Under the pieces are notes generated by a model. The model saw nothing but the letters and a program-made list of their open reading frames with translations, searched no databases and had not been told where the DNA came from. 23,315 nt of DNA from Methylophaga sp. GTDB lineage: Bacteria > Pseudomonadota > Gammaproteobacteria > Nitrosococcales > Methylophagaceae. The DNA lies in assembly GCF_030651745.1 (NCBI RefSeq), contig NZ_JAUSCC010000124.1:1-23315 (forward strand), written 5' to 3'. Positions 6,646 through 22,842 of this stretch are shown one piece after another. How positions within the stretch are numbered: the stretch's first letter is position 1; the number at the start of each line of letters is the position of its first letter. The translations under genes were made by a program, and so were the position numbers.

Positions 6646-6701
6646 CCGAGACTTTCTTGATACCCCTCCCAGGAAGGATCAAGAAAGTCCCGGAAGGCGG
6701 G
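6646..6701 (-). promoter_or_regulatory. LS20: folded leader, second of tandem pair before the primase unit
   Basis: The longest member. Outer stem CCGGGACTTTCTTGAT with ATCAAGAAAGTCTCGG: 16 bp with one G-U pair. It encloses CCTTCC/GGGAGG-type inner complementarity. Upstream CCCG (6701-6698) can pair with CGGG of the 5' arm, the competing hairpin typical of the family. Confidence 0.8.
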
Positions 6702-6716
6702 ATGGAAAATCCACCC

Positions 6717-6762
6717 GAGAGAAAACGCTCGACCCATAGGGAGATGTTTTCTCCCAAGTGGG
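6717..6762 (-). promoter_or_regulatory. LS19: folded leader, first of tandem pair before the primase unit
   Basis: Outer stem GGGAGAAAAC/GTTTTCTCTC (10 bp, one G-U). Inner hairpin CCC-TAT-GGG. Competing hairpin CCC-ACTT-GGG with segment A at 6762-6760. It begins 9 nt after the stop of the 78-residue gene. A further hairpin (CGGGTGGA../..TCCATCCCG) links it to LS20. Confidence 0.8.
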
Positions 6763-6771
6763 TAAGATAAA

Positions 6772-7008
6772 TTAAATCAAATGATGCTTTTGCAATTGAG
6801 CACGCACACAATCCTCAATAGAGAGTATTGTGCAGGCATATTGCTCCATAATTCGGTCTAATAGTTTGTCCTCAAGAACAACACAAAATTCCTCTAAAGC
6901 AATCCGTTCTGCCTGCTTTTGAGGCAGAGTGTTATTCAAAAGACTTTCGTAATAATCTACTGCGGCATCAAGATCCTCATTTAAAACTTCATCGGCTTCA
7001 TTCAACAT
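6772..7008 (-). CDS. small acidic helical protein, unknown
   Basis: 78 residues, mostly predicted helix, acidic in the first third (NEADEVLNEDLDAAVDYYESLL). No motif is recognised. AGGAGG overlaps the TAG of the upstream gene and is 4 nt from the ATG, so the two genes are coupled directly with an 8-nt gap. This is one of the few junctions in the train without an LS leader. Confidence 0.6.
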   Translation of the reverse strand: MLNEADEVLNEDLDAAVDYYESLLNNTLPQKQAERIALEEFCVVLEDKLLDRIMEQYACTILSIEDCVRAQLQKHHLI

Positions 7009-7016
7009 AAAACCTC

Positions 7017-7853
7017 CTAAGCAGCGTGAGCTACAAGTTTTTTAATTTGAACAGGACGATGTTCGGTAATTTCAACAACGTCATAATCATCAAGAAGCGC
7101 AATGAAATTGCTACGAATAGCATCGCAAGCCGTATCAAACGCACAAACCAGATCGACACGATCGCGAAGCGCTTCCATTGACCAGTCTTCGGCATAAAAG
7201 TCCTCAAACTGATCAATACCTCTGTTTGCGACCATCAATCGTGACGGCGGAACACTGAAATTGGATCGAGGATTTCCACAAACACCGCAAGCATCGGACG
7301 CTGAACAATCTCTTAATTCAGTTTTGAGCCGGTTAATCAGCAACAATTTCTTGTCGTTTGAAATGGTCAAAGTCTGAATTGCAGGTTGACCCAGGTAAAC
7401 GCCAGGAAGCCAAGAATTCTGGCTTCTGAGTATTTCCCGAGCAATTACTTCTTCGTTCTCGTCCTGGTAAGTAACCGGCGGTACCTTTTTAAAGTTCCGC
7501 TGACCACAGGTGGGACAGTAGCTGAGATGCCCGGTGAGTTCCAGGTGAGACTCATGCAAAACCAGATAACCGCCGGAACGCCCATTCGAACAAATGGTGT
7601 AGCGATGACCTTGGTCATACGTAAAGTCGTCAATAGGGCCTCTAATTTCTTCCCAGAAATCAACATTCAGCATTTCATAGGCTTTATCATCCTGTTTAGA
7701 CGATAAGCCTAGACGATGAAACTTGATGTTATTAGCATAGGACGTTAGACGATTCCACGAACTCATGGTGTCGTAACGGTAATGCCCTTTTAAAAAATCT
7801 ACCATTGCGGAACGGGTGCGACGGTCAACTTTGTTTTGAAAATATGGTTTCAT
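7017..7853 (-). CDS. conserved mobile-element protein with two CxxC pairs
   Basis: 278 residues. The N-terminal part (RYDTMSSWNRLTSYANNIKFHRLGL, then a region around TICSNGRSGGYLVLHES) resembles a hypothetical family I associate with proteobacterial plasmids and integrative elements. CPTCGQRNF (about 112-120) and CGVCGNPRSNF (about 189-199) probably bind one zinc. No enzymatic motif is seen. AGGAGA is 6 nt before the ATG. Its leader LS18 shows 9 bp of complementarity to this SD/AUG region. Function unknown. Confidence 0.75.
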   Translation of the reverse strand: MKPYFQNKVDRRTRSAMVDFLKGHYRYDTMSSWNRLTSYANNIKFHRLGLSSKQDDKAYEMLNVDFWEEIRGPIDDFTYDQGHRYTICSNGRSGGYLVLHESHLELTGHLSYCPTCGQRNFKKVPPVTYQDENEEVIAREILRSQNSWLPGVYLGQPAIQTLTISNDKKLLLINRLKTELRDCSASDACGVCGNPRSNFSVPPSRLMVANRGIDQFEDFYAEDWSMEALRDRVDLVCAFDTACDAIRSNFIALLDDYDVVEITEHRPVQIKKLVAHAA

Positions 7854-7881
7854 GATTTTTCTCCTGCCTTGAAAAGTAAAA

Positions 7882-7929
7882 AGCGGGAAAAATCACTTGT
7901 CCCAGTGGGAAAATGACAATCCCGCTGGG
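7882..7929 (-). promoter_or_regulatory. LS18: folded leader before the 278-residue gene
   Basis: Outer stem AGCGGGA/TCCCGCT (7 bp) plus TCA/TGA beyond a small internal loop. Inner hairpin TCCC-ACT-GGGA. Competing hairpin CCC-AGC-GGG, with segment A 19 nt after the upstream stop. The 3' arm region TGATTTTTC (7895-7887) is perfectly complementary to GAAAAATCA (7861-7853), which covers the SD flank and the first base of AUG. Confidence 0.85.
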
Positions 7930-7948
7930 TAAAGTAAAGTAAGCCTAT

Positions 7949-8152
7949 TTAGTCAATTGAAAACCTGTAAGAACCGGTTTCGTTGCGATCAAAGCCCGAA
8001 GTAAAGCCTCCATCTAAAAGACGCATAACTTCCTCCAAAGCTAGTTGCAAATCATCAGTTTCTTGACCTTTTATCTCGATAGTCATTTTTAGAACGGATT
8101 GCCCCGTGTCTGAATTGGACTCTGGAGATGATTTGGTAACATGATTACTCAT
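7949..8152 (-). CDS. small conserved protein (FTSGFDRNETGSY motif)
   Basis: 67 residues from the ATG at 8152 (MSNHVTKSS); a longer frame from 8206 would run through the leader RNA and is rejected. The C-terminal half, DLQLALEEVMRLLDGGFTSGFDRNETGSYRFSI, has the shape of a small plasmid/phage hypothetical family (helix, then a glycine-rich GF-SGFD turn, then a beta strand). AAGAG lies 7 nt upstream. Function unknown. Confidence 0.65.
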   Translation of the reverse strand: MSNHVTKSSPESNSDTGQSVLKMTIEIKGQETDDLQLALEEVMRLLDGGFTSGFDRNETGSYRFSID

Positions 8153-8171
8153 GGCACTACTCTTAAAAAAT

Positions 8172-8218
8172 CGGGAAACGCCACAATTCCCATAGGGAAA
8201 AGGCATTTCCCGGTAGGG
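8172..8218 (-). promoter_or_regulatory. LS17: folded leader before the 67-residue gene
   Basis: Outer stem CGGGAAATGCC/GGCGTTTCCCG (11 bp, one G-U). Inner hairpin TTCCC-TAT-GGGAA (5 bp). Competing hairpin CCC-TACC-GGG. Segment A is 17 nt after the upstream stop. TGGC of the 3' arm matches GCCA at the start codon. Confidence 0.85.
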
Positions 8219-8235
8219 TTAAATAAAATGAATGA

Positions 8236-9834
8236 TTAAGCAGCCGTTACCGAAGCAACTTTGCCGGCATCATCCAGGGTAATAACAAACGACTTGCCGT
8301 ACAACGAAGGGCAGCCTGAAAAGCCAGGTAACAAACGCTTCATCGCATCAGCAGGATCAATTGATGTATTCGCGACAACGAACGATTCAAATGCGTACAT
8401 ATCTGATTCATGCGTCGACTCTTGAAAGTCTTCATACTCGGATCTGTAACTTGAGATCTGTTTCAGGACATAACCTGAAGCATCGTTCTTTGGAAGAATG
8501 ACTTGATCTTCATTTTCCTGTCCTTGGTAGAAAGCATCGCCCGCAATTTCAACAAAATCATCGCCTATCTTTATCCGGTATGAGTCACAAAAACGTACAT
8601 AAATCGATATCCAATCGCCTTCGAAAAAAGCACCATGCGTTTCATTGACCAGTTCAATCGTCAGTTCTTCATCATCGAGATTCCGAATCTTCGAATGAAT
8701 CCAGTGATCGTTATCAAGTCCACCTTGATAGATCAAAGCGTCACGTTCCCGTGCGAACATGTAACGAGCAGCGCCGTATTCCTGTATGTCTTCATCGATA
8801 TCAACAACTTCACGGGCTTCAACTTCTGAACGGGTCAGAGATTGGTTGAGCCTGGAAGTGAAGGTGCCGTAAGCATCAGTGTCGCAGTTTGGGTAATCGT
8901 CGAACTCATGCAAAGCTTGCATAGGAACGACAGGTACATCATTGAGTAAACTCAATAATCCCCAGTGCTTCATTATTTCGTAAAAAAGCACAAATTCCTT
9001 GGCGGAAACTGTGGCTTTAAGCAATACAAGACTTTCTTCAATTTCCTTCGTCAAAACAGACTTAACGAGCTTTACAACATCGGCCTCATCAATAAGCTTA
9101 TCTCGATCCGGTAAACGCGCATAAAACCGTGAAGAATCAAGATGAATGATGTGCCGATTTCGCGACCCATAAGAATGCGATCGATAAATAGGCAAACCTT
9201 GCAGGTACACGTCAAACTCGTCGCTAATGCCAAGGGGCTCATCAATACCCGACAAACATACAGCGCCAATTTCAGTCTCGACAAAGCGAAGACCGGAATC
9301 AGGCGCATACTGTCTATCGAGAAATACGTCGTTGAGTGACACAGGAATTGGAAAACCGCGCGAAAGGCGATTAAGCGTATCCTGAACGTCCTTCAACTCA
9401 AGATCAGCGCCAAGCATAGTGATGGAGGTTATGCCATTCCAGTCAGTAACAGGTGTTACGGTGACGGGTTTGAACGACAGAACATCGTTGGTATCGACTG
9501 AAATGCGACCGCTCTTACTGACAACGGTCAGGTGACGGCAGGCAAACAATGCGGATAAGAAGCCGATGCCAAATGGATGCTCTTGAGCAACCACATCAGC
9601 ATCCCAACCGGATTCAGCGACAGTAAGCAGGGTTTCGATAGAATCGATACCGCAACCATCATCGGTTACCCGAAGAATTTTGGTTTCAGGCGCAAACTCA
9701 AAAACAACTTGAGTCGCATTGGCACGTCTGGCGTTTTGCATTAACTCGCCAAGCACCGTGGTTTTATTGGTAAAGCTGAATTTCAAGCTTTTAACCAGGT
9801 TAGCCTGGTTTACTTTCATTGCTACAGTTTTCAT
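8236..9834 (-). CDS. GHKL (HSP90-like) ATPase
   Basis: 532 residues from the ATG at 9834 (AGGAG 8 nt upstream; the longer frame from 9873 lies in the leader). The N-terminal GHKL ATP-binding fold is clear: N-box ELMQNARRA (residues 30-38, E30 and N34), G1 box DDGCGI (58-63), G2 box PFGIGF (87-92). About 400 residues with no recognised domain follow, ending in a beta-rich region. It lacks histidine-kinase phosphoacceptor and receiver domains, so it is more like HSP90/MutL/MORC-type ATP-operated clamps. Such stand-alone ATPases are common on mobile elements; the target is unknown. It has its own leader (LS16), but the gene immediately upstream is on the other strand, so a nearby promoter must exist. 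Confidence 0.85.
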   Translation of the reverse strand: MKTVAMKVNQANLVKSLKFSFTNKTTVLGELMQNARRANATQVVFEFAPETKILRVTDDGCGIDSIETLLTVAESGWDADVVAQEHPFGIGFLSALFACRHLTVVSKSGRISVDTNDVLSFKPVTVTPVTDWNGITSITMLGADLELKDVQDTLNRLSRGFPIPVSLNDVFLDRQYAPDSGLRFVETEIGAVCLSGIDEPLGISDEFDVYLQGLPIYRSHSYGSRNRHIIHLDSSRFYARLPDRDKLIDEADVVKLVKSVLTKEIEESLVLLKATVSAKEFVLFYEIMKHWGLLSLLNDVPVVPMQALHEFDDYPNCDTDAYGTFTSRLNQSLTRSEVEAREVVDIDEDIQEYGAARYMFARERDALIYQGGLDNDHWIHSKIRNLDDEELTIELVNETHGAFFEGDWISIYVRFCDSYRIKIGDDFVEIAGDAFYQGQENEDQVILPKNDASGYVLKQISSYRSEYEDFQESTHESDMYAFESFVVANTSIDPADAMKRLLPGFSGCPSLYGKSFVITLDDAGKVASVTAA

Positions 9835-9863
9835 GGGGTTATCTCCTGGTTCATTAAAAAAAA

Positions 9864-9907
9864 CGGGAGACAAAACATTCCCACTGGGAAGTTAAGTTCC
9901 CGGAGGG
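9864..9907 (-). promoter_or_regulatory. LS16: folded leader before the GHKL ATPase
   Basis: Outer stem CGGGA/TCCCG, the shortest of the family, extended by AAC/GTT beyond an internal loop. Strong inner hairpin TTCCC-AGT-GGGAA (9890-9878). Competing hairpin CCC-TCC-GGG. TCTCC of the 3' arm is complementary to the SD GGAGA. Confidence 0.75.
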
Positions 9908-9962
9908 TTGTAAAAAGTGAGTGATCGCTTACCATGGTTAAAAACAAACATGGGGCGAGTCA

Positions 9963-10340: not shown

Positions 10341-10484
10341 TCATCCAGTTGGCTTCGGCTATCGTCGAAGATTCCTTGAGCTTAAGAATAAGGTTATGCA
10401 GCTGAATATCAGCTTGGCTTCCAGTTCAAGATTAGTTGCGCTGTCAGCAAAGCGGTAAAATGACTTGTGATCATCTTTGTTCAT
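10291..10484 (-). pseudogene. small gene with one-base frameshift, unknown
   Basis: ATG at 10484 has GAGG 8 nt upstream and follows leader LS15. The frame MNKDDHKSFYRFADSATNL.. runs to about 10412 and then goes off into TAG at 10361. Shifting by one base at about 10408-10413 (AAGCTGATATT) gives IQLHNLILKLKESSTIAEAN.. through to TAA at 10293-10291. Adding one base would produce about 64 residues reading ..EAKLDIQLHNLIL. This looks like a single-base deletion in a small helical protein. Its 3' end converges with the plus-strand gene. Family unknown. Confidence 0.6.
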
Positions 10485-10504
10485 GGTGTTTTCCTCAGTT
10501 AAAA

Positions 10505-10555
10505 CAGAGAAAACACACGTTTCGCATCAGGAAAAAATGAATTTTCCCTGATGGG
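10505..10555 (-). promoter_or_regulatory. LS15: folded leader before the frameshifted gene
   Basis: Outer stem CAGGGAAAA/TTTTCTCTG (9 bp, one G-U). Inner TTTC/GAAA. Competing hairpin CCC-ATCA-GGG. The 3' arm GTGTTTTC is fully complementary to GAAAACAC, which carries the SD and ends just before the start codon. Confidence 0.85.
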
Positions 10556-10724
10556 TTAAAATATAAAATAAATAAATTCACGGCTAGGCCGCTTATAGGT
10601 ATCACGCCGGAGCGCTTATCGATTCCTCATTTAAAGTGCTGAACTGGCACTGCTTTCGAGTTCTCTTAGAGAACTACAAAAATTCGTCTTTCCACAATAC
10701 TTTCTCAAAAAAGCACTCTGGAAA

Positions 10725-10831: not shown

Positions 10832-11287
10832 TCATACTTTAGAACCTATTTCAAGGCTGTCAAAACCAACAAGACAGTACCGATCAATCCATGTTGATTT
10901 GCAATGATTGCACTCAACACAAATTAAACCAGCTAATCCTTCGCCGTCAAAAGAGCTTTTGGCTTCAACATCGTTGCTGCCACAGTTAGGACAAATCAAC
11001 CCTTTGTTAGCAACATAATTTTCCTGTTGCTTATCAACGACAATATTTACTTCACCAAACGCAGCAAAGACGCGTGCAACATGAGTGTCATCGCGAAGAA
11101 TAGGCTCAATGTGACCAACAAACTCGGTACCATCATCAAGCTCAGTCATCTCGTCTCCATCCGCACCATCTATATCAAGATCCTGTATCGCGACCTTGAT
11201 AACTGTGGCGGAGTTGGAATAAACCGCTTGTACAATGCCTCCTTCGAGGTGGATGACAAGACGAATTTCAGTTGTGTTTGTAGTCAT
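10832..11287 (-). CDS. protein with C-terminal zinc ribbon
   Basis: 151 residues. The N-terminal ~100 residues are beta-rich and acidic (VIHLEGGIVQAVYSNSAT, DIDGADGDEMTELDDG). The C-terminus has a zinc ribbon: CPNCGSNDVE (residues about 99-108) and CVECNHCKSTWIDRYCLVGF (about 123-142), with ..W-D-Y-LVGFD-L, a pattern I associate with small plasmid-borne proteins. GGAG is 7 nt before the ATG. Possibly a nucleic-acid-binding accessory protein; function not established. Confidence 0.7.
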   Translation of the reverse strand: MTTNTTEIRLVIHLEGGIVQAVYSNSATVIKVAIQDLDIDGADGDEMTELDDGTEFVGHIEPILRDDTHVARVFAAFGEVNIVVDKQQENYVANKGLICPNCGSNDVEAKSSFDGEGLAGLICVECNHCKSTWIDRYCLVGFDSLEIGSKV

Positions 11288-11313
11288 GATGTATCTCCAA
11301 TAATAAATAATTC

Positions 11314-11355
11314 AGGGGCACATCATTCCCGAAAGGGGTGGTGTGCCCCTATGGG
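11314..11355 (-). promoter_or_regulatory. LS14: folded leader before the zinc-ribbon gene
   Basis: Outer stem AGGGGCACA/TGTGCCCCT (9 bp perfect). Inner CCC..GGG. Competing hairpin CCC-ATA-GGG, 12 nt after the upstream stop. ATGATGT just inside the 3' arm is complementary to ACATCAT, which includes the AU of the start codon. Confidence 0.85.
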
Positions 11356-11367
11356 TAAAATTAATGA

Positions 11368-11655
11368 CTAAACAGATTTCTCTGTGTAGAACACTTGAAA
11401 GCTATCATCGCCCTCATCAAACATCGAGAAAAAATGCTTCAGGCTGTTACAGTCCTTGAATTCTTTTAAGCTTTTTGATGTGGATATTCTTTTTCGACTC
11501 AGCCAAGCGGACTTGATGTCAGGTTGTTCGCAGAACGTCTTTATCTGCTTTCTAATTTCAAGCTGCTTGGCAAAGCCAGAGCCGTTGTTATTCCAATAGA
11601 TGGCAGCATCTTTCGGAATGGTTTTCAGATTATGAACAATTACTTTTTTCATCAT
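11368..11655 (-). CDS. small basic protein, unknown
   Basis: 95 residues from the first of two adjacent ATG codons (MMKKVIVHNLKTIPKDAAIYW); GGAG is 7 nt before it. It is lysine-rich, with a possible strand-helix N-terminus and a central RKQIKTFCEQPDIKSAWLSRKR region. No family is recognised. Confidence 0.6.
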   Translation of the reverse strand: MMKKVIVHNLKTIPKDAAIYWNNNGSGFAKQLEIRKQIKTFCEQPDIKSAWLSRKRISTSKSLKEFKDCNSLKHFFSMFDEGDDSFQVFYTEKSV

Positions 11656-11675
11656 TGTGAATCTCCAAAAAATAC

Positions 11676-11721
11676 GGGAAACCACATGTGCCCGGCAGGG
11701 AATGTGATTTCCCTGGTCAGG
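11676..11721 (-). promoter_or_regulatory. LS13: folded leader before the 95-residue gene
   Basis: Outer stem GGGAAATCAC/GTGGTTTCCC (10 bp, one G-U). Inner CCC-TGCC-GGG. The competing hairpin has changed sequence to CCT-GACC-AGG with pairing retained, a compensatory variant of the usual CCC/GGG. Confidence 0.85.
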
Positions 11722-11751
11722 TTTAAAGTAAAATTAAAATCCTAAGCGGAT

Positions 11752-12201
11752 TCAGTATTTAAGCAGAGGGACGACTAATTTCTCAGCCTTATCATGCGTG
11801 TCACAAGCCAATTGAATAGACTCATCATCGTCATTGAACATGCCCCGCATTTGCTCGATTTGTTCTCGCATTAAGGACATGGCTTCAGTTGAGGATTCAA
11901 GCGCTGTTTCAATTTCAATTGCTTGATCTTTAACGCGATCCAATTCAGCTTCAAGTAATTGCAAGCGCTCAAGATCTGCCAATATTTCTGACATCATGTT
12001 ATGAGCCAAGATAATAAACTCCGCATTAGCACGACGTTCATTTCTCATGACTTTATTATCGCCATCAACCAAAACTTCGGCGACAAACGTATTGCCACAC
12101 ATAACGTTATTGTTGCGGAGCGACCAATCTGTCGACAAATCGATATACCCTTCCTTAGTTGCTGCTTCAAAAGCGGTTCTTAACTTTTGTAAATTACTCA
12201 T
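11752..12201 (-). CDS. coiled-coil protein, unknown
   Basis: 149 residues from the ATG at 12201 (MSNLQKLRTAFEAAT..). The N-terminal ~70 residues form a small mixed domain (YIDLSTDWSLRNNNVMCGNTF). Residues about 75-130 are a long heptad-type helix (DLERLQLLEAELDRVKDQ, then MSLMREQIEQMRG), suggesting a dimeric coiled coil. GGAG is 8 nt before the ATG. It follows a terminator-like hairpin, so it may be expressed less than upstream genes or need another promoter. Confidence 0.65.
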   Translation of the reverse strand: MSNLQKLRTAFEAATKEGYIDLSTDWSLRNNNVMCGNTFVAEVLVDGDNKVMRNERRANAEFIILAHNMMSEILADLERLQLLEAELDRVKDQAIEIETALESSTEAMSLMREQIEQMRGMFNDDDESIQLACDTHDKAEKLVVPLLKY

Positions 12202-12223
12202 TGTACTGCTCCAAAAAAAGTAA

Positions 12224-12265
12224 CAGACAAAGAGCAACCCAGAAGGGATGTGATCCCTGTCTGGG
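12224..12265 (-). promoter_or_regulatory. LS12: folded leader before the coiled-coil gene
   Basis: Outer stem CAGACAGGGA/TCTTTGTCTG (10 bp, two G-U). Inner CCC-TTCT-GGG. Competing hairpin CCC-AGACA-GGG. TGCTC in the 3' arm pairs with GAGCA overlapping the SD. It starts 8 nt after the hairpin at 12274-12299. Confidence 0.8.
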
Positions 12266-12273
12266 TAAGAAAA

Positions 12274-12309: not shown

Positions 12310-14196
12310 TCAAGCTGCCAACAACAAATCGCGGCTGATCCTGAACATCTCGGAACGCAACTCGGACACATCGTTGATGCAGATTGACCGATCAAATAAA
12401 TGACTCGTGTCGAAACAGACACCAACACCAACAAGCTCAATACCAGTCGCTTCACAACGTTTGATAATAGCTTTTGTGAGATCCAGATCATCAGGCTGTC
12501 CATCGGTTAGCACCATAATGATTTTCCGTTCTTCACGCGTAGCCAGAACGGATGAGGCGGCATACCACAACGCGGTATGAAGCGGTGTTCCTCCACTTAC
12601 AATAGGAGCGAATTTCGGCGCATTTAGGCGAACTTTTTGACTATGTTTCAACAGAGGAACCACGTTGCCGGTATCGTTGTATGGAAATCGAGTCACAGCA
12701 GGATTGACGCCTGAAATACCTTCCAGTGCCAATGCTAATGCCATTGCTGATTCCATTGCCAACTCGATCAAAGAATGATTAGGATTATTCGGGGCTCTGT
12801 CTGCCATAGAGGTTGAACCATCTACCAGCAAATGAATTGCCGTATTCGGCGCCTGCTTATGGCTTCTGCGTTCGAAAACACGAGAATCGCCCTGAATTAA
12901 ACGAGACAGCCTTCTACCATCAATACGATTGCCCGAGCGTTTATTCACGGGACGATCACATCGACTGGATTGAACCAGACCTTGAAGCGAAGCGCGGATT
13001 TTGCCCGAGCTCCCTAAAACCTTATTCATCAGTGCGTTACCAATAGCAGGATTCAAGTCTGGATCCATGGCAACAGGCATGTGAACATTTTCATCGTAAC
13101 TATTGACAGGTTGACTGCCCAAAAGCTGTTTAGCCGCTTCAAACACGTCATCCGGCACATCATCATCACTGGCTGACAACACAGAAGCCAGGTTTTGCGC
13201 TAATTGCTCGCTATTCTGATCCTGTGAATTATCGGCATTGCTACCCATAGCATTAACATGACCCTGACCAGGTTGTGAATCTTGATCGTCAGCATCGCTC
13301 AGTTGAGAGCTTGAGCCTTGATCTTGATCCTCAATGTCCGGTTCAGAATCGCTTGGTTGTTGAATCGGCTGACTGTCATCAGCATCTTGATCGGTTGGAG
13401 AATCGTCACCTTGGGACGGGCTATCCTGTGGGGAATCGCCTGAGTCAGTATCGGTTGAATCCTCATCTTGATCAGTATTACTTTGTCCAGTTTGAGATTG
13501 AGACGACGAATCATCACTATCTTGTTGCTGAGACTGCTGTTGACGAGCCTTTTCCTGCTCCTTCTCCTGTTCCTCTTCAATCATGCGCAAAATGCGGTCG
13601 GCAAGCCGAACACAATCACGCGTTACTTGAAGCTGAGGCATTTCGGATAGAAGACCATTCAATCTTGTTACCGCACCGACTGGAAAAGTATCTTCCAGTA
13701 AGGATTCAGCGGTATCTGCGTAAGACGACAGAGCTGTTTGGCCCAGGATGTCATTACGAAGACGAAACAACAAAAACTGAGATAATACAGCTGCAGGATG
13801 CACCTGTTCATTTTGACCGATTATTTGAAATCCGCCGGTTTGAATAAGATGCTGTACAACTTTTTCAGTCGTTCGTTTAGTACCCGGATAAGTATCCTGC
13901 ATCAATTTCTCAATGCGAATATCCTCCAGGATATTGACGATTCTTTTCCGAACAGGATTAGTCGCGGCATTACTAAAAGCAGTGAACTCGGTAAACCGGA
14001 CATGTGCTGCTTCATGTGCCAAATAGCCCCATGCAACATCCTTGTAAGACTGATCTTCAAGGTTGTAAGCAGGAATATTGATCATTTTGCCAGTGGTATA
14101 GGCATCAGAACCGCCAATGCTGACATTAACGCCAAACTTGTTGCCCAATGCTGCGGCAACGATAGGAAAGGCGTTATTCAAGGTTTTATTTTTCAT
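12310..14196 (-). CDS. CobT-like VWA-domain protein
   Basis: 628 residues from the ATG at 14196 (MKNKTLNNAF, GGAG 7 nt upstream). N-terminal part: LAHEAAHVRFTEF (HEAAH at 61-65) and EDIRIEKLM (91-99), the pseudo-metalloprotease region shared with CobT. Middle: an acidic Q/D/S-rich linker at about 205-335. C-terminal VWA domain with a complete MIDAS: D459-G-S461-T-S463, T537 in SGGTPLHTAL, D565 in VLTDGQPDD. CobT works with the AAA+ protein CobS in cobaltochelatase, but no chelatase large subunit or cobalamin genes are here. Together with the CobS-like ATPase at 17767-18738 and DUF3150 it more likely forms a MoxR/VWA-type remodelling machine of the mobile element. Confidence 0.85.
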   Translation of the reverse strand: MKNKTLNNAFPIVAAALGNKFGVNVSIGGSDAYTTGKMINIPAYNLEDQSYKDVAWGYLAHEAAHVRFTEFTAFSNAATNPVRKRIVNILEDIRIEKLMQDTYPGTKRTTEKVVQHLIQTGGFQIIGQNEQVHPAAVLSQFLLFRLRNDILGQTALSSYADTAESLLEDTFPVGAVTRLNGLLSEMPQLQVTRDCVRLADRILRMIEEEQEKEQEKARQQQSQQQDSDDSSSQSQTGQSNTDQDEDSTDTDSGDSPQDSPSQGDDSPTDQDADDSQPIQQPSDSEPDIEDQDQGSSSQLSDADDQDSQPGQGHVNAMGSNADNSQDQNSEQLAQNLASVLSASDDDVPDDVFEAAKQLLGSQPVNSYDENVHMPVAMDPDLNPAIGNALMNKVLGSSGKIRASLQGLVQSSRCDRPVNKRSGNRIDGRRLSRLIQGDSRVFERRSHKQAPNTAIHLLVDGSTSMADRAPNNPNHSLIELAMESAMALALALEGISGVNPAVTRFPYNDTGNVVPLLKHSQKVRLNAPKFAPIVSGGTPLHTALWYAASSVLATREERKIIMVLTDGQPDDLDLTKAIIKRCEATGIELVGVGVCFDTSHLFDRSICINDVSELRSEMFRISRDLLLAA

Positions 14197-14220
14197 GGTG
14201 TACTCCAAAAAATTAATAAA

Positions 14221-14264
14221 GGGGCAAACCATGACCCAAAGGGGCTGTGTTTGCCCCAGGTGGG
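14221..14264 (-). promoter_or_regulatory. LS11: folded leader before the VWA gene
   Basis: Outer stem GGGGCAAAC/GTTTGCCCC (9 bp perfect). Inner CCC..GGG. Competing hairpin CCC-ACCT-GGG, 19 nt after the upstream stop. CATGGT at the 3' arm is complementary to ACCATG, that is, to the start codon itself, and GCCCC can pair partly with the SD. Confidence 0.85.
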
Positions 14265-14935: not shown

Positions 14936-15592
14936 TTAGTTTGCGAGAGGATGATTCACAACATAATTGTGAATCACATCAAGTGCATGGCGTTGTGCTT
15001 TATGCTCAGTAGCAAGCTCAGGATCATCATCAACATCCAATTGATCCAAAACATGCCCATTTGCCATAGCAAACACAATATCGAGCGCTACTAAAAACTC
15101 AGGCTCTTTCTTCATGCGTTCAAATGCCGCAGAAGTGCCATCATGCTGAACAGATTCGCGAGTAATTCGACAAACCCAGCCGCCAAATTCACCGGGACGA
15201 AGTTTGTCGCAGGTATAAGCACCCTCGATACAGATGTCCTCAATGCTTGCGCACTCAGGTTTTTTCAAAATTTCCTGGAAAATTGATACCCAACTGAATT
15301 CACTTGAGACATAAGCATCCAAGTCGTCGGAGCCATGTTCCTGAATGTATTCCAGCAATTTAACTGCAATAGGATCCCCTAGCTGAGCGTGTTCGGAAAC
15401 AAGATCAACTTCGAGATCTTCAATTTCGTCACGAGCACCTTCTTCCGCGAAAAAATAAACGGTATCGTCCTGATTGGAACTATAGGTTTCATAGGAAAAT
15501 CCATATCTGTTGAGTAATTCCTTTTCAAAATCCGTAACGGAAGAAATAGGAAAATTAGGTTGAACAGTCGCCTGGTCGTAATTATTAGCCAT
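14936..15592 (-). CDS. acidic protein, unknown
   Basis: 218 residues from the ATG at 15592 (MANNYDQATVQPNF). Very acidic in the middle (EEGARDEIEDLEVDLVSEHAQ) and mostly helical; ends in ALDVIHNYVVNHP. C114, C124 and C130 fall in one stretch (CASIEDICIEGAYTC). No family is recognised. GGAG is 6 nt upstream of the ATG. Confidence 0.6.
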   Translation of the reverse strand: MANNYDQATVQPNFPISSVTDFEKELLNRYGFSYETYSSNQDDTVYFFAEEGARDEIEDLEVDLVSEHAQLGDPIAVKLLEYIQEHGSDDLDAYVSSEFSWVSIFQEILKKPECASIEDICIEGAYTCDKLRPGEFGGWVCRITRESVQHDGTSAAFERMKKEPEFLVALDIVFAMANGHVLDQLDVDDDPELATEHKAQRHALDVIHNYVVNHPLAN

Positions 15593-15615
15593 AAAAATCT
15601 CCAAAAATTAAATGA

Positions 15616-15662
15616 CGGCGAGGCAAAACAACCCATACGGATTGAATTTGCAACCCGCCGGG
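15616..15662 (-). promoter_or_regulatory. LS9: folded leader with bulged outer stem
   Basis: Outer stem CGGCGGG-TT-GCAAA/TTTGCCTCGCCG, with a two-base bulge in the 5' arm. Inner hairpin CAATCC-GTAT-GGGTTG (6 bp, one G-U). Competing hairpin ACCC-GGC-GGGT. Segment A is 17 nt after the upstream stop. Complementarity to the SD is weak in this copy. Confidence 0.8.
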
Positions 15663-15679
15663 TAAAAAATAAATTAAAA

Positions 15680-16951: not shown

Positions 16952-16978
16952 AACTGCTTCTCCAAAAATATTAAAAAT

Positions 16979-17024
16979 GAAGAGGCAGAAACGTCCCATA
17001 AGGGCGTTTATTGCCCCTTCTGGG
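16979..17024 (-). promoter_or_regulatory. LS8: folded leader before the DUF3150 gene
   Basis: Outer stem GAAGGGGCA/TGCCTCTTC (9 bp, one G-U). The inner hairpin is unusually long: AAACGCCC-TTAT-GGG-A-CGTTT. Competing hairpin CCC-AGAA-GGG, 19 nt after the upstream stop. CTGC of the 3' arm pairs with GCAG next to the SD. Confidence 0.85.
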
Positions 17025-17043
17025 TTAGTAAATAATTAAAAGT

Positions 17044-17766: not shown

Positions 17767-18738
17767 TTATTCTCCCCATGAATCACCAAAAACATCTTTG
17801 GCAATACGATGGATAGCTTCACGTTGAGCGGGTTCTGCACGCAAGGTGAGAGCACGATCCAGTGAATACGCCAGGGCATTGGGTGCCCGTTTGTAAGCAA
17901 TCATCAAGTTAGTCCAGCGTACCAATGTCCGGGTAGACATAGTGACGCTAAGTTCACCTGAGCCATCGGAATCACCAACAAAAAGCCGACGAATTTCATT
18001 CGCGACTTCAATCATTTTCTCTGTCAGATTTTCCATGATGGAATCGACAGTAATACTCATGCTGACAAGTGATGCTTTCAAGATGGCCTTCTCAATAGAA
18101 GCTTCGGGATAACCGACTTCCATTAATCTGAACCGATCCAAAAAAGCAAGATTTTGCTGCATGATACCTTGATAAAGACCGCTTTGATCACCCTGTCCAG
18201 CGGAGTTGCCGGTAGCGATCAAACGGAATTTAGGATGAGGCTTAATGACTTCACCACCGTTTTGAGGAATGACCAAAGGTTGCCCTTCGATAATATCGTT
18301 CAAACCGGCGAGTTCAGAAGGATCCATCAAGTCGATCTCATTCAAAATCAACAAATGTCCATCACGAACAGCTTGAGCAAGCGGACCATGCACAAAAGAC
18401 ATGGAACCGTTGACGAGCATGAATTGACCAATCAAATCGTTCAGCTCAAGACGACCGTGACAGGTGACTTGATGAACAGGCCAATTCAAGCGAGAAGCGA
18501 CCTGGCAAATCATCGATGTTTTGCCAGAACCAGTAGGGCCAGTCAAGTACAACGCATCGCCAAAGGGATTAGCAATAAATGCCAAGACATCGCGAAGATG
18601 TTCATTTCTGAACACATAGTCCTTCTTGGTTGGAATTAGAGGATGCAGAGCATCATCAAAACCATCAACCGTCATAACAGCAGGCGCTGTAATGCCAAAA
18701 GTTGAGCCAATAGGGAATTTTTTAGTTTGAGTTTTCAC
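17767..18738 (-). CDS. CobS-like/MoxR-type AAA+ ATPase
   Basis: 323 residues. Walker A G67-PTGSGKT74, Walker B LLILNEID (129-136), sensor 1 IATGN (174-178) and DRFR (201-204) as the arginine-finger region are all intact. The region around VTCHGRLELNDLIG fits the CobS/NorQ/GvpN branch of MoxR-like ATPases. These pair with VWA proteins; the partner here is the CobT-like protein 3.6 kb downstream. The start is GTG with AAGGA 7 nt upstream. It is preceded by LS7 and by its own promoter module (copy 2), so it heads a sub-operon. Confidence 0.9.
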   Translation of the reverse strand: MKTQTKKFPIGSTFGITAPAVMTVDGFDDALHPLIPTKKDYVFRNEHLRDVLAFIANPFGDALYLTGPTGSGKTSMICQVASRLNWPVHQVTCHGRLELNDLIGQFMLVNGSMSFVHGPLAQAVRDGHLLILNEIDLMDPSELAGLNDIIEGQPLVIPQNGGEVIKPHPKFRLIATGNSAGQGDQSGLYQGIMQQNLAFLDRFRLMEVGYPEASIEKAILKASLVSMSITVDSIMENLTEKMIEVANEIRRLFVGDSDGSGELSVTMSTRTLVRWTNLMIAYKRAPNALAYSLDRALTLRAEPAQREAIHRIAKDVFGDSWGE

Positions 18739-18759
18739 AGTGTTTTCCTTGGTTTAAAC

Positions 18760-18808
18760 CAGAGAAAACACACGTTTCCCCTAGGAAAAATGGATTTTCC
18801 CTGGAGGG
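18760..18808 (-). promoter_or_regulatory. LS7: folded leader before the AAA+ gene
   Basis: Outer stem CAGGGAAAA/TTTTCTCTG (9 bp, one G-U). Inner TTTCC/GGAAA. Competing hairpin CCC-TCCA-GGG. GTGTTTTC of the 3' arm is fully complementary to GAAAACAC between SD and start codon. The palindrome GGTTTAAACC follows immediately. Confidence 0.85.
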
Positions 18809-18828
18809 TTGAAAAATAAATATCACGG

Positions 18829-19056: not shown

Positions 19057-19701
19057 CTATTCTGGAGGCAACAACCCTTGTTGCCTGAATTCATTCATAT
19101 CATCATTGTCAACACGGTCGTAAATTTCTTCAACCGCGAGCGTTAAATCAATTGATTCAAACGTGATTGAATCTCCAAGAAAATAAAATTCATAATTCCA
19201 ATCAGTCCTTTTACGAAGGACTTGCACCTGAACGAAGTCTTGTTCTATCAATACATATTCCAGTAAAGATGGCAGGTTAATGTATCTTAATAGTTTTGTT
19301 GTAAGATCACGTTTTCTGGTCGATTTAGATAACACTTCAACAATAATGGTGGCGGAGTTTGAAAAATAACTCTTCCCTTCTGTTTTGGAGCAATCAACCA
19401 GTACATCAGGATAAACGTAGTTTTTTCCTATAGAGACCTTCAATGGTACTTTAATGTCGGACATAAAAGTTTCACAGGGCTTACCTTTCAAGTGATTTCT
19501 GAACTCGCCAAAAATATTACCTGTTATCCGTGCGTGATTGACACTCGCCCCAGCCATAGCATAAGCGCGACCATCAATATATTCACGTCGAACCTCAGAA
19601 TCCGGTTCACTTGCCAAATATTCTGCTTCAGTCATGCAGATGCCTTCATATTCAGATTTAGGTTGTAAAGCCATTGAATGATTCTCCGGTATTGCGTTCA
19701 T
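19057..19701 (-). CDS. Uma2-family (PD-(D/E)XK nuclease fold) protein
   Basis: 214 residues. Uma2/DUF820 features in order: EYIDGRAYAMAGASVNHARI (about 40-59), YPDVLVDCS with the active-site Asp (97-105), IIVEVLSKSTRKRDLTTKL with Glu and Lys (119-137). These restriction-nuclease-fold proteins are abundant in cyanobacteria and some proteobacteria; their substrates are mostly unknown and some are transposon or island passengers. GAGG is 8 nt before the ATG; leader LS6 precedes it. Confidence 0.85.
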   Translation of the reverse strand: MNAIPENHSMALQPKSEYEGICMTEAEYLASEPDSEVRREYIDGRAYAMAGASVNHARITGNIFGEFRNHLKGKPCETFMSDIKVPLKVSIGKNYVYPDVLVDCSKTEGKSYFSNSATIIVEVLSKSTRKRDLTTKLLRYINLPSLLEYVLIEQDFVQVQVLRKRTDWNYEFYFLGDSITFESIDLTLAVEEIYDRVDNDDMNEFRQQGLLPPE

Positions 19702-19732
19702 TGTTATTTCCTCACATTGTCATTAAAAAATA

Positions 19733-19773
19733 CAGGGAAAACAATACCCACAAGGAATGTTTTCCCTGATAGG
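19733..19773 (-). promoter_or_regulatory. LS6: folded leader before the Uma2 gene
   Basis: Outer stem CAGGGAAAACA/TGTTTTCCCTG (11 bp perfect). Inner CC-TTGT-GG. The competing hairpin is the variant CCT-ATC-AGG. ATTGTT..TTCC of the 3' arm is complementary to GGAA..AACAAT running from the SD into the start codon. Segment A is 17 nt after the upstream stop. Confidence 0.85.
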
Positions 19774-19790
19774 TAAAAATTAAAATGGAA

Positions 19791-20153
19791 TTAGTATTCC
19801 GATGGCAGCAACAGAACGTCGTCGAGCAGATAAAATTTCCAAGTCCCCTCAATTAAAGTTGTGAATGTCACATGCTTTGACTTCAGCTCATTACCATTGC
19901 CATCAGTGACAACGATTGTGCAAGATCCATTTTGAGACTCCACCGTGATAAACAAAAACGGTTGCTCCTTGAGCATTGGAAAGTGCTCGGTTGCAATAAT
20001 GTCCAAAAGCCAATAACTTTCAGTTTGCTCCGCAAAATACTTGACGCCGTCGGTGTAGGTCATTGATGGCGTCAATGGGTGTTTATACCAGTTTTCCGTG
20101 CCAATAAACTGCATCAGCTCAGATTCCAATGCTGCTTTTGGTAGTGTTTCCAT
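19791..20153 (-). CDS. DUF6876-like protein
   Basis: 120 residues. It matches the pattern I know as DUF6876: ELMQFIGTENWYKHPL at the N-terminus, TYTDGVKYFAEQTESYWLLDIIA in the middle, and a C-terminal end FYLLDDVLLLPSEY. The family is common on plasmids and integrative elements; function unknown. GGAG is 6 nt before the ATG. Length is close to the usual family size. Confidence 0.75.
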   Translation of the reverse strand: METLPKAALESELMQFIGTENWYKHPLTPSMTYTDGVKYFAEQTESYWLLDIIATEHFPMLKEQPFLFITVESQNGSCTIVVTDGNGNELKSKHVTFTTLIEGTWKFYLLDDVLLLPSEY

Positions 20154-20178
20154 GTAAATCTCCAGCTAAATTAAAAGA

Positions 20179-20225
20179 CCGCAAGAAACACAGCATCCGC
20201 AAAAGATGAGTATCCTTGCGGAAGG
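20179..20225 (-). promoter_or_regulatory. LS5: most divergent folded leader, pairing conserved
   Basis: Outer stem CCGCAAGGA/TTTCTTGCGG (9 bp, one G-U). The inner hairpin is CATC..GATG instead of CCC..GGG, and the competing hairpin CCTT-CCGC-AAGG instead of CCC..GGG. All three helices are changed in sequence but still pair, which is strong single-window evidence for an RNA function. Confidence 0.85.
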
Positions 20226-20238
20226 TTAGAAAGAAAGA

Positions 20239-20391: not shown

Positions 20392-21062
20392 CGCATCACC
20401 ACAGTGCTTAACTTTGGTACAGGTTTAGTTGAGACCTTCTGATCAATACGCCAGATTTTCCCGAGAGAATCCGGATAGGTATCCAGAAAATCTTCAGGAT
20501 AAATTTCACGAATAACACCGTCGATATCTTTGTGAAAGTATTGACCGTCGGGTTCGGAGTACAAATAGTGCGTAGTCCGAAGGCCACTTTTTAAAGACAA
20601 TGAAAGATCAATGCTATGGTCTCTTGCAAGATCAAGCGCCTCTGTACTGGTCAACAAAGAATCATCTGACAGAGTTGCTTGAGCATCGTCCTGTTGGGAC
20701 GACAATTCGGCAGCAACATGAGGCAATGCTTTCCTCGCAAAATCACGGGCAGAGTTACAACAACCGGCAAGCAAGGCCTGGCACGCATAAAATGCAAATT
20801 CCTTTTGCTTTATAGCTTTGACAGAAGAATCAGGTTCCGGGAACTCCGAGATTTCTTCAGCACTGAAACACAAGGTTTCGTCATCGACTTCTTCATAATC
20901 ATCAAAGAGCAAGGGCATGTCTTCAGTGTCACCCCAAATAGTGCCTTCATCGAATGCGGCACTAGCCAATTGCTTGGCAGTTTCGGCATCCGGTGCAGTA
21001 ACACCCACAACAACTCGGTGTGTGTAGTCAATTTCGTAGGTAACAGCAAATTTTTTAGTCAT
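20388..21062 (-). CDS. conserved plasmid-type hypothetical protein
   Basis: 224 residues from the ATG at 21062 (MTKKFAVTYEIDYTHRVVVGV). The N-terminal ~90 residues have a beta-alpha-beta look (VTAPDAETAKQLASAAFDEG) and a motif PLLFDDYEEVDDETLCFSAEE, ending EFPEPDSSV, which I recall from plasmid hypothetical proteins. The middle (ACQALLAGCCNSARDFARKAL) is helical; the end carries HYLYSEPDGQYFHKDIDG. Function unknown. AGAGGA precedes the ATG. Confidence 0.7.
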   Translation of the reverse strand: MTKKFAVTYEIDYTHRVVVGVTAPDAETAKQLASAAFDEGTIWGDTEDMPLLFDDYEEVDDETLCFSAEEISEFPEPDSSVKAIKQKEFAFYACQALLAGCCNSARDFARKALPHVAAELSSQQDDAQATLSDDSLLTSTEALDLARDHSIDLSLSLKSGLRTTHYLYSEPDGQYFHKDIDGVIREIYPEDFLDTYPDSLGKIWRIDQKVSTKPVPKLSTVVMR

Positions 21063-21086
21063 GGTTATTTCCTCTAAAGAATTAAT

Positions 21087-21129
21087 AAAAGAGGCAACCA
21101 TTCCCAAGGGGGACGTTGCCCCTTTTGGG
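21087..21129 (-). promoter_or_regulatory. LS4: folded leader, 1 nt from the upstream stop
   Basis: Outer stem AAAAGGGGCAAC/GTTGCCTCTTTT (12 bp, one G-U). Inner CCC..GGG. Competing hairpin CCC-AAAA-GGG starts one base after the upstream TAA, so a terminating ribosome would cover it. CCTCT and GGTT of the 3' region match AGAGG (SD) and AACC before the ATG. Confidence 0.85.
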
Positions 21130-21130
21130 T

Positions 21131-21472
21131 TTAATGAAGTTTTCGATTCTGAACAGATTCAAATTTGTTTAAAACGGCATCACGAATTTCATCAGGATCA
21201 AATCCGGATACCTTGCAGCAGTTGGTGAAGCTGAAGGGATTCGGATCGTTAACGTCCATCATCCATTTGAAGATTTCAACAACTGTTTCCATCGAACAAC
21301 GGCCGTCAAACAGATTCCGCAACGAGTCTTCCACAAGACAATCGCAGATATGGGCAATTTCCTCATTAGTCCAGGGCGGTACTTCTTCAGCCAATGGCTC
21401 TGTGCTTTGCAGCCACAGCCATTGATCATCGAACAGGTCGAGATTTAGGCTACGATCAAAACCTCGGCGCAT
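21131..21472 (-). CDS. small protein with PFSF-CC--GFDP motif
   Basis: 113 residues from the ATG at 21472 (AGGAGG 6 nt upstream). The segment NPFSFTNCCKVSGFDPDEIRDAVL near the C-terminus resembles a motif (PFSFE-CC--LG-DP--VR) found in small phage and plasmid proteins. The N-terminus is acidic and aromatic-rich (LDLFDDQWLWLQ). Function unknown. Confidence 0.65.
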   Translation of the reverse strand: MRRGFDRSLNLDLFDDQWLWLQSTEPLAEEVPPWTNEEIAHICDCLVEDSLRNLFDGRCSMETVVEIFKWMMDVNDPNPFSFTNCCKVSGFDPDEIRDAVLNKFESVQNRKLH

Positions 21473-21489
21473 GGTGCCTCCTAAAATTC

Positions 21490-21531
21490 GGGAAACACAT
21501 GCGCCCATACGGGAAAGTGTTCCCCGGTGGG
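21490..21531 (-). promoter_or_regulatory. LS3: folded leader before the 113-residue gene
   Basis: Outer stem GGGGAACAC/GTGTTTCCC (9 bp, one G-U). Inner CCC-GTAT-GGG. Competing hairpin CCC-ACC-GGG. GGCGCATG, just 5' of the 3' arm, is complementary over 8 bp to CATGCGCC, i.e. start codon plus codon 2, and TTTCC can pair with the SD. Confidence 0.85.
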
Positions 21532-21557
21532 TTAAAGGTTAATGGCGGACTAAGTGG

Positions 21558-22556
21558 CTAAAACCAAAAGTTGCCGTCATTAGCGGACATGATTGCGTCC
21601 ATTGAGAACGGAACCGATGCTTTTTCTTCGTCCTTGAGTGTAAGACGTGTTCTTTCGGACGAATCTTTACGAAAAGTTTCCAAAAAAGTTGGATCAACAT
21701 CGGGATGCAAGGCTAATAACGCAGCCTTGTAATCGATACTGCCTTGAGCCAGATAGCGACTGATCCGTAGACCTGCGCTTTCAGCTTGGGCAAAATCGCC
21801 TATTAATTTAAGGAATGCTTTTTCAATATCCACCTGCTCTTTTTCAAGCGGTTTAATCTTGACTTTGAATTCCTCAATCATTTTCTCAATAGAATGGTAA
21901 TTAGCGGCAAGCGCGTTCCATTTATCAAGTTCCTGACCGGATGGGATGTAGATATCGCGCTTCGGATCCGTTGCCGGAGGCTTATTTTTGTTCAGACAAT
22001 CGACAAATTTACGTGCTTCGAAAACCAGATTATCGATAAGATCATTATCTCGCTCTATCAAGAAATCAAGTTGCTCTTTGTCATTCAGGTAGAGCGACAA
22101 GTAGCCCTTATCGGAACCTGCAACCAGAATTTGATGCTGAACCTGGTAGTAATACCGCTTGTAAATTTTCGATTCAATGCCGTCCTGTTGAGCATTCCGG
22201 AAATTAACTTCCATAGGGACTTTCAATTCAACAGGAATTCCTTCGTCGCTGATGCCATCAAAAGATGCCCTAAGAAAAGGGAATTCTTCGGATTCGGCAC
22301 ATAACGGCAAAAGTAGGGTGTCATACCGATTTTCAAATGATTTTCGAGCGGTTGCTTCAAGCCTGATTCCTCTTTGGACAAACGGGTTTGCATCCAGATT
22401 GTCAGGAAGCGTGATGCCTTTCTTCTCCGTATATAATCGGTAGATTGTCTTTAACAGACATTGTCCAAGAACGACAATCGCCTCCGACGCAGAAACACCT
22501 GATGTTCGCCACTTGTGCCATTCGGGCGTTCTTTGCTGGAGATTAATGATTTTCAT
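21558..22556 (-). CDS. YqaJ/lambda-type exonuclease-like protein
   Basis: 332 residues from the ATG at 22556 (MKIINLQQRTPEWHKWRTSGV). The longer frame from 22601 would span the leader hairpin and is rejected; GGAG lies 6 nt before the ATG. Motifs: RTPEWHKWRTSGVSASEA (9-26); RGIRLEATAR with E67; FDG with D100; PVELKVP with E110 and K112; YYYQVQHQILVAG (136-147). This is the PD-(D/E)XK 5'-3' exonuclease fold used with a single-strand annealing protein in phage and element recombination. No annealing partner is visible in this window. A helical C-terminal extension (about 190-260) precedes the end. Confidence 0.85.
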   Translation of the reverse strand: MKIINLQQRTPEWHKWRTSGVSASEAIVVLGQCLLKTIYRLYTEKKGITLPDNLDANPFVQRGIRLEATARKSFENRYDTLLLPLCAESEEFPFLRASFDGISDEGIPVELKVPMEVNFRNAQQDGIESKIYKRYYYQVQHQILVAGSDKGYLSLYLNDKEQLDFLIERDNDLIDNLVFEARKFVDCLNKNKPPATDPKRDIYIPSGQELDKWNALAANYHSIEKMIEEFKVKIKPLEKEQVDIEKAFLKLIGDFAQAESAGLRISRYLAQGSIDYKAALLALHPDVDPTFLETFRKDSSERTRLTLKDEEKASVPFSMDAIMSANDGNFWF

Positions 22557-22574
22557 AACGACTCCAAATTTAAT

Positions 22575-22619
22575 GGACGTCATGAATCCCCTATAGGGCA
22601 TCAGTGACGCCCAAATGGG
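22575..22619 (-). promoter_or_regulatory. LS2: folded leader before the YqaJ-like gene
   Basis: Outer stem GGGCGTCA/TGACGTCC (8 bp, one G-U). Inner CCC-TATA-GGG. Competing hairpin CCC-ATTT-GGG, 17 nt after the upstream stop. TGACG and TCC of the 3' arm can pair with CGTTA (into the ATG) and GGA of the SD. Nearly the same sequence as LS1. Confidence 0.85.
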
Positions 22620-22636
22620 TGAAAGTAATTTAGTAG

Positions 22637-22774
22637 CTATCCAAGAACGGCTCTAATAATGTCGATTAAATTGCCTTCTGGAAAGGCTTGATCTCCCACA
22701 AGAGAAATAAAGAAAATGGTCCCGAACATAACATGGACGATCAGATTTAAAATGTGTAAAAAACATGTTTTCAT
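22637..22774 (-). CDS. 45-residue membrane peptide
   Basis: ATG at 22774 with GGAG 6 nt upstream and LS1 before it; TAG at 22639-22637. The peptide MKTCFLHILNLIVHVMFG.. has one hydrophobic stretch (about residues 5-27) and a short polar tail (GDQAFPEGN..). It fits the operon spacing exactly: leader, SD, gene, 17 nt, next leader. No family is recognised. It may be a small single-pass membrane protein. Confidence 0.6.
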   Translation of the reverse strand: MKTCFLHILNLIVHVMFGTIFFISLVGDQAFPEGNLIDIIRAVLG

Positions 22775-22798
22775 AACGGCTCCAAATAATGAAATGAA

Positions 22799-22842
22799 GG
22801 ACATCATGAATCCCCGGTGGGCATCAGTGACGCCCAGGAGGG
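22799..22842 (-). promoter_or_regulatory. LS1: folded leader before the 45-residue gene
   Basis: Outer stem GGGCGTCA/TGATGTCC (8 bp, two G-U). Inner CCC-ACC-GGG. Competing hairpin CCC-TCCT-GGG, 14 nt after the upstream stop. Differs from LS2 at paired positions in ways that keep pairing (C to T opposite G). Confidence 0.85.

Follow-up and report, generated by a model that had tools for sequence, protein, structure and literature searches.

The lambda cIII mRNA and the erm and cat translational attenuators have two exclusive folds each, one of which hides the Shine-Dalgarno sequence (SD); these are single genes, switched by RNase III or by ribosome stalling on a leader peptide. We describe RNA leaders predicted to have two such folds at about 19 gene starts of one long minus-strand operon in a 23,315-nucleotide stretch of Methylophaga sp. 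DNA (NZ_JAUSCC010000124.1, positions 1 to 23,315, called the window below), for which no trigger of the RNase III or leader-peptide type was identified. Nearly all carry a segment complementary to two others, and would switch between a closed and an open fold, likely limiting translation to a time window on the new mRNA. We give this reading, which rests on modelled folds, about even odds (a probability near 0.5).

The timing logic proposed here resembles that of the MS2 maturation-protein leader, where a transient fold lets translation precede the closed fold, but that is one leader of one phage with a cloverleaf-like closed fold, and the passages on it in PMC6733600 do not mention an upstream copy of the start region. 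According to the same article, the hok/Sok and aapA type I toxin mRNAs also have metastable hairpins, and folds that succeed one another as the RNA is made contribute to whether the SD is hidden; hok, like many of the elements that carry our leaders, is on a plasmid. Each of these, however, is a lone toxin mRNA that has an antisense RNA and is processed at its 3' end, whereas the leaders recur before unrelated genes of an operon (PMC6733600).

An earlier sequence-only reading of the window had listed 20 leaders with the order CCC-GGG-CCC-GGG-CCC, U-rich linker, SD and ATG, in which an outer stem encloses an inner hairpin. The order is as described, and fold energy and strand bias (see below) set it apart from chance. 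The family and its minus-strand placement also hold, but the count is 18 to 19, two of them weak: a covariance model (R1) gave 18 matches at E ≤ 1, all on the minus strand, of which 10 served as training and 8 lay outside it, and folding added a 19th (ATG 20153) that R1 missed and that has the same folding pattern (Table 1). The stem with its enclosed hairpin corresponds to one fold, the open one; the arm formed by the SD/ATG region and the competing second fold had been overlooked.

The leaders are 70–90 nt long and combine a constant CCC/GGG core with three arms, X, Y and Z, that differ by gene. Y, which ends with CCC3, is complementary both to the upstream arm X, which begins with GGG1, and to the SD/AUG region Z; X resembles Z because both pair with Y (e.g., in L008:4415-4498, X is GGGGAAACAC, Y is GGTGTTTCCCC and Z is GGAGAAACACCATG). 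Folding with the SD forced paired or forced free gave two competing folds in most leaders. In the closed fold, a nested hairpin A (CCC1:GGG2 with X:CCC2) is accompanied by Y:Z, which covers the SD and the AUG. In the open fold, X:Y encloses the small CCC2:GGG2 hairpin, and CCC1 and Z are unpaired. The mean U fraction of the linker is 0.60 in the window, 0.70 in L001-L018 and 0.56 in L019-L085. A U-rich 5' flank is common in methylotroph leaders and differs in L024-type leaders. No strongly conserved loop, as in the unpaired core of riboswitches, was apparent when the alignments were read.

We folded 34 leaders, of which w6617, Y18589 and Y30178 were then dropped; alignment A2 takes the 21 clearer cases among the other 31. 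R1 rests on 21 leaders, of which 10 come from the window and 11 from L001, and its structure is A + Y:Z. Genomes were scanned with six aligned CobS-like proteins, which gave 124 relatives; the best 80 of these are loci L006-L085. The sequence-only reading had proposed a covariance-model search as its check, and R1 returned many matches before different genes. One set of 19 sources, scanned at E ≤ 1, yielded 213, spread over 18 of them; the other 67 sources, scanned at E ≤ 0.5, yielded 283, spread over 63. Matches were thus present in 81 of the 86 scanned sources. R1 found none in L004, L019, L021, L023 and L076 (purple sulfur bacteria), and weak ones only (best E 0.15–0.23) in L058, L066, L078 and L082. 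Almost all matches (492 of 496, over the 86 sources) lie on the coding strand of the operon, although these counts are not independent, since many sources carry near-identical elements, which from their gene content we take to be of the SXT kind.

We aligned the best 150 of the 213 matches (2 of the 18 window matches are absent from them) and the best 150 of the 283; 253 of these 300 are distinct. The ATG, which belongs to the model, is the exact end of 292 of the 300, and 297 lead into an open reading frame (ORF) of at least 30 codons, a length that is outside the model. By blastp, the products downstream of 297 elements form 52 clusters; 16 of these elements are from the window, and no two of their products share a cluster, which agrees with the earlier statement that the genes are unrelated. 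Together with the preference of each leader for its own pairing partner, the ATG ends uphold the idea of a cis-acting RNA family tied to start codons.

The 253 distinct elements have a mean fold energy of -30.5 kcal/mol, compared with -18.6 (standard deviation 4.4) in dinucleotide shuffles. Their energies follow the order A, then X:Y, then A + Y:Z in 162 of the 253, against 105 of 759 when Y is swapped. We dropped the energy of SD closing alone as a criterion for leaders, as other starts score equally well. Total stability does separate leaders from other starts (-25.8 vs -16.4), and leaders are distinguished by this stability and by own-partner pairing.

Registers differ among leaders, and X:Y is therefore unreadable from the columns of a covariance-model alignment. 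Hence, we judged arm pairing by swapped-partner tests, run on leaders not chosen by the model and separately on model-chosen ones, and by pair counts. In 18 window leaders picked by eye, arms pair better with their own partner than with swapped ones, both for X:Y (z -7.6) and for the upstream arm with Z (z -5.5). For these tests and for the comparison of SD closing, starts were chosen from annotation; the gapped operon starts 13961 and 14592 of L086 were left out, those of L090 and L005 were only partly taken, and one L003 control start was dropped for X:Y. The L002 comparison of X:CCC2 was not used.

Pair counts were made across 30 orthologues of the CobT leader (alignment A5). Paired cells amounted to 81.9% for Y:Z vs 79.4% in shuffles (0 of 500) and to 91.7% for X:Y with the inner hairpin vs 89.1% (0 of 500), falling to at most 43.8% and 75.0%, respectively, when slid. 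The slid versions are at a disadvantage here, since the structures come from the consensus, and the shuffles ignore relatedness. G.U was favoured over A.C by 26 to 5 in X:Y with the inner hairpin, with nothing left out. The corresponding figure for Y:Z, 30 to 7, is without column pair 52:81, which is unpaired in 29 of 30 rows and mostly sets a C against the A of GGAG, and we relied on X:Y with the inner hairpin instead. The leaders thus have two predicted exclusive folds, one of them over the SD, and sequence evolution backs both, except that X:Y was not significant in IncHI1 plasmids.

The sequence-only reading had placed the family in one accessory operon. Near confinement to this type of operon holds, but the operon occurs in many hosts and plasmids. 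In ten operon-bearing records or genomes scanned whole (E ≤ 0.05; for the seven genomes G001-G007, 150 candidates were scored per genome), 107 of 109 matches lie in or beside it. The plasmid of Methylobacter sp. YRD-M1 has 22 matches, all within 313.7–337.3 kb, the Methylomonas AM2-LC plasmid 28 within 75–104 kb (one on the other strand), and pLM6 eight within 3.5–18.6 kb. G001 has 11 on one 15-kb stretch, G003 has 15 in four stretches (loci L028, L041, L065 and L079), and G004-G007 have one each, at the known locus. In G002, 19 of 21 lie in one 20-kb stretch and the other two on contig C3 (562853-570940).

Judged by sequence matches, many Gammaproteobacteria have the element in related operons, and plasmids typed IncA and IncHI1 have it too. 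The E. coli plasmid L086 is typed IncA; searched without filters, it has 13 R1 matches at E ≤ 0.2, every one on the plus strand: nine end exactly one base past an annotated start codon, two more within 5 nt of such a position and two at no annotated start. Folds were made for 18 gapped starts of this plasmid. The Vibrio plasmid L087 and the IncHI1A-typed plasmid L090 also match R1, L089 only weakly (best E 0.22); L091 was covered by folding only. Of 72,556 plasmid records, 771 match one 191-base junction of L086 wholly or partly, 48 of them over 80% of its length or more; of 5426 E. coli genomes, 87 match it (4 over 80% or more) and 7 match a junction of L005. The Providencia plasmid L088 has a similar gene order, with a CobS-like protein just 35.5% identical to that of L086; R1 found nothing there better than E 0.37, and one match at E 1.7 ends at a gene start. 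Its 6300-16500 region has another intergenic style, with ordinary hairpins and a recurring TTTTAAATCTATTAAA-like stretch before the SD.

The energy order suggests that the leaders act as a translational timer. Hairpin A would be the first to form. Once Y is transcribed, X:Y would become the better fold and A would open; during this stage the SD and the AUG would emerge free, and a 30S subunit could bind. Later, Y would shift from X to Z, A would re-form and the start would be shut. This supposes that both folds exist in cells, that the closed one keeps ribosomes off, and that the change is a matter of timing and not of a bound factor. Of the two functions envisaged at the outset, translational rather than stability control would be the better fit, given that the SD/AUG region takes part in the pairing as an arm. 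We propose more tentatively that a self-acting RNA clock stands before almost every gene: X copies the leader's own start region Z, and competition between the two for Y would allow brief translation and then shut-off, with neither ligand nor protein nor small RNA involved. One grammar, in different letters, would serve in methylotroph elements, in those that we presume to be SXT-like, in IncA-typed ones and, at least for the closed fold, in IncHI1 plasmids.

Several results weigh against the timer. The full-length minimum fold of the 16 window elements contains Y:Z in 12 and X:Y in 3, and the full predicted course of folds was found in only 8 of the 16. The net gain from closing the SD averages -4.5 kcal/mol in window leaders (at least 3 in 10 of 18) and -4.9 kcal/mol at 49 other starts of related records (at least 3 in 31 of 49). 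These other starts show a smaller own-partner effect too, both for the upstream arm with Z (own -8.62 vs -7.31, z -3.9, 49 starts) and for X:Y (z -2.3, 48 starts); one of the controls, L090 7472, may itself belong to the operon. X:Y was not significant in 10 IncHI1 starts (z -1.5, 370 of 5000), and X:CCC2 was weak in L010 (162 of 20000) and L006 (952 of 20000). In the CobT leaders, X:Y showed no clear excess of pairs altered in both bases (144 of 500 shuffles reached the count) or of further pair types (51 of 500). A ligand or a protein could be the real trigger.

A trans-acting plasmid or host protein, or a small RNA, might set the same two folds by binding the constant parts (UUUAACCC, GGG), which would move all leaders together as a regulon inside one operon. 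We consider this possible, if rather doubtful. A regulator common to unrelated genes would need just such a constant CCC/GGG core in front of them, and the 5' flank shared by methylotroph leaders and the concentration of matches in or beside the operon point the same way. Yet the flank is different in L024-type leaders, and no candidate factor turned up, though no systematic search was made.

Transcription attenuation, with X:Y and the U tract as an intrinsic terminator or pause hairpin and A as the antiterminator, is unlikely as a general account; a terminator role in methylotrophs is possible. Five or more T in an 8-nt span just after Y were counted in 14 of the 16 elements of the window and in 118 of 130 distinct ones of L001-L018, but in only 67 of 107 in L019-L085. 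By a looser measure, a U tract anywhere from -38 to -10, the leaders with one are 17 of 18 in the window and 2 of 18 in an IncA-typed plasmid. Attenuation also leaves the match of Y to the SD/AUG region unexplained, and some 18 terminators in series would be expected to silence the distal genes. Terminator-like sites number 32 in the window vs 16.1 (standard deviation 4.8) in shuffles, counted with a tool whose 8-nt loop limit cannot see the X:Y hairpin, and promoter-like sites are not above shuffles (21 vs 29.7).

The U-rich linkers fall in the Y:Z loop, where an endonuclease such as RNase E might cut and so free the downstream start, leaving X:Y as a 3'-terminal hairpin that caps the upstream message; the rarity of U tracts in IncA-typed leaders makes such cleavage improbable. 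Plain translational coupling, in which a ribosome finishing the upstream gene melts hairpin A, is more improbable still: leaders often begin within a few tens of bases of the upstream stop, but the estimated distance from stop to CCC1 is below 10 nt in just 19 of 291 elements and 10–34 nt, beyond the usual footprint of a terminating ribosome, in 177. Finally, DNA-level inverted repeats (protein operators, single-stranded DNA hairpins or recombination sites) can hardly be the explanation, for although CCC-N-GGG palindromes recur and genes for ssb, bet and an exonuclease are present in related operons, the strand bias, the preference for G.U over A.C in X:Y and the fixed register to the SD and the ATG all speak for RNA.

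If the timer is true, it is a compact, portable means of timing the translation of many genes together, which would account for the kept intergenic gaps of roughly 60–100 nt and would offer dozens of natural variants for the study of regulation by transient RNA folds. The operon is conserved across widespread conjugative plasmids and integrated elements, with the RNA element before nearly every gapped gene.

The leader element is without a name in Rfam. No Rfam family matched a leader at gathering score in L001, L003, L005, L086, L002, L024 and L028, and the four weak matches in the window (E 0.37–4.1) all lie off the leaders. We rejected these four, three in L086 (best E 0.014) and one in L005 (E 2.4), all below gathering and eukaryotic or otherwise unfitting. 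The sole gathering-score match in L001, L003 and L005 was a group II intron, which in L001 (13221-15588) lies within the operon. Among the matches listed in a literature search, which left subscription papers and preprints mostly uncovered, titles and abstract openings described no such leaders; a small RNA of SGI1 described in PMC9299015 is unrelated to them.

Two motifs listed in PMC2864571 invite comparison. STAXI (RF01728) occurs near ssb and other DNA-handling genes, as the leaders do, but is a pseudoknot repeated two or three times in tandem, whereas the leaders are mostly single nested hairpins at start codons. R1 matches are spaced one per gene start, with one pair sharing a gap (16878 and 16974 in L086); the folding tools used are blind to pseudoknots. 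STAXI itself gave no match up to E 5 in the window, E 1 in the L086 operon and E 3 in the L005 operon, and none at gathering score in the seven records searched with Rfam. The radC motif (RF01754) is a proteobacterial candidate named for a gene also present in related operons (those of L004 and L005). Its model of 149 positions is unlike the leaders and matched none of six element-bearing records or genomes at E ≤ 1.

Table 1. Leaders of the window, with the arms of the clearest example. Training: membership in the R1 training set.
Leader	Position	Strand	R1 E-value	Training	Other evidence
Compound leader: element and second long hairpin	6655..6768	-	0.15	no	second hairpin folded
ATG 7853	7850..7935	-	1.7e-5	no	folds
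ATG 8152	8149..8224	-	1.7e-8	no	open X:Y fold dominant
ATG 9834, HATPase-like protein (HATPase_c_3)	9831..9913	-	0.0014	no	
ATG 10484, 41-codon ORF	10481..10561	-	2.2e-9	no	
ATG 11287	11284..11361	-	2.7e-9	yes	
ATG 11655	11652..11727	-	2.5e-9	yes	
ATG 12201	12198..12271	-	6.9e-4	no	
ATG 14196, CobT/VWA (clearest example)	14193..14270	-	1.5e-11	yes	alternative folds
CobT/VWA leader, 5' arms	CCC1 14264-14262, X 14257-14249, CCC2 14245-14241, GGG2 14237-14235	-			
CobT/VWA leader, 3' arms	Y 14233-14221, U-rich linker 14220-14207, Z (SD+ATG) 14206-14194	-			
ATG 14853	14850..14928	-	5.5e-9	yes	
ATG 15592 (divergent)	15589..15668	-	1.0 only	no	X:Y fold
ATG 16951, DUF3150 gene	16948..17030	-	3e-9	yes	Pfam
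GTG 18738, CobS-like AAA ATPase (AAA_5, CbbQ_C)	18735..18814	-	1.5e-8	yes	
ATG 19701, Uma2-family gene	19698..19779	-	5e-6	no	Pfam
ATG 20153, DUF6876 gene (divergent)	20150..20231	-	no match at E ≤ 1		alternative folds; Pfam
ATG 21062	21059..21135	-	7.1e-8	yes	
ATG 21472	21469..21537	-	4e-10	yes	
ATG 22556, YqaJ exonuclease gene	22553..22625	-	5.8e-6	yes	Pfam
ATG 22774, 45-codon ORF	22771..22848	-	3.2e-7	yes	

The divergent leader of ATG 15592 forms no Y:Z helix even with the SD constrained to be paired. The compound leader precedes a 19-codon ORF (ATG 6617) that reaches the next start, at 6561. The ORF starting there and the junctions 17763/17767 and 7008/7017, which had been read as directly coupled, are present in the ORF list.

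The leaders sit between genes whose products include, by Pfam, a CobS-like AAA ATPase, DUF3150, CobT/VWA, YqaJ exonuclease, Uma2, DUF6876, a HATPase-like protein and a primase zinc ribbon; a WGR match scores under the curated cut-off. The closest relative in the plasmid collection is the 349-kb YRD-M1 plasmid, with a CobS-like protein 86.9% identical. Single-protein queries found no relative of the CobS-like or DUF3150 proteins in viral contigs.

In the region 4826-6196 with 3786-4601 and 6289-6561, a transposase-like ORF lies between a 90-aa primase zinc-ribbon fragment recognised by Pfam and a 271-aa ORF; the latter looks like the remainder of a toprim primase, and L001 has a single toprim gene at the corresponding part of its operon. 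The motif TTAGGTATCA, or a near variant, is found at several boundaries of the window (about 149, 1084, 6289 and 10594), one of which adjoins the transposase region. Plus-strand ORFs at one end of the window are separated by short stretches (170-310, 1060-1080 and 2020-2080), which to us resemble integron attC sites.

A segment of about 165 bp is duplicated 8.25 kb apart (10618-10783 and 18866-19032), in four blocks that are 88–97% identical. Both copies lie upstream of an element and carry, on the minus strand, a promoter-like TGAACA/TTAACA-16-CATAAT; three intergenic regions of L001 hold stretches that share GTGCCAGTTCAGCAC. Between the CobT gene and the next leader, the window has a 10-bp hairpin with a T run (12274-12299, minus strand); a similar hairpin follows the CobT stop of L001, near 26600.

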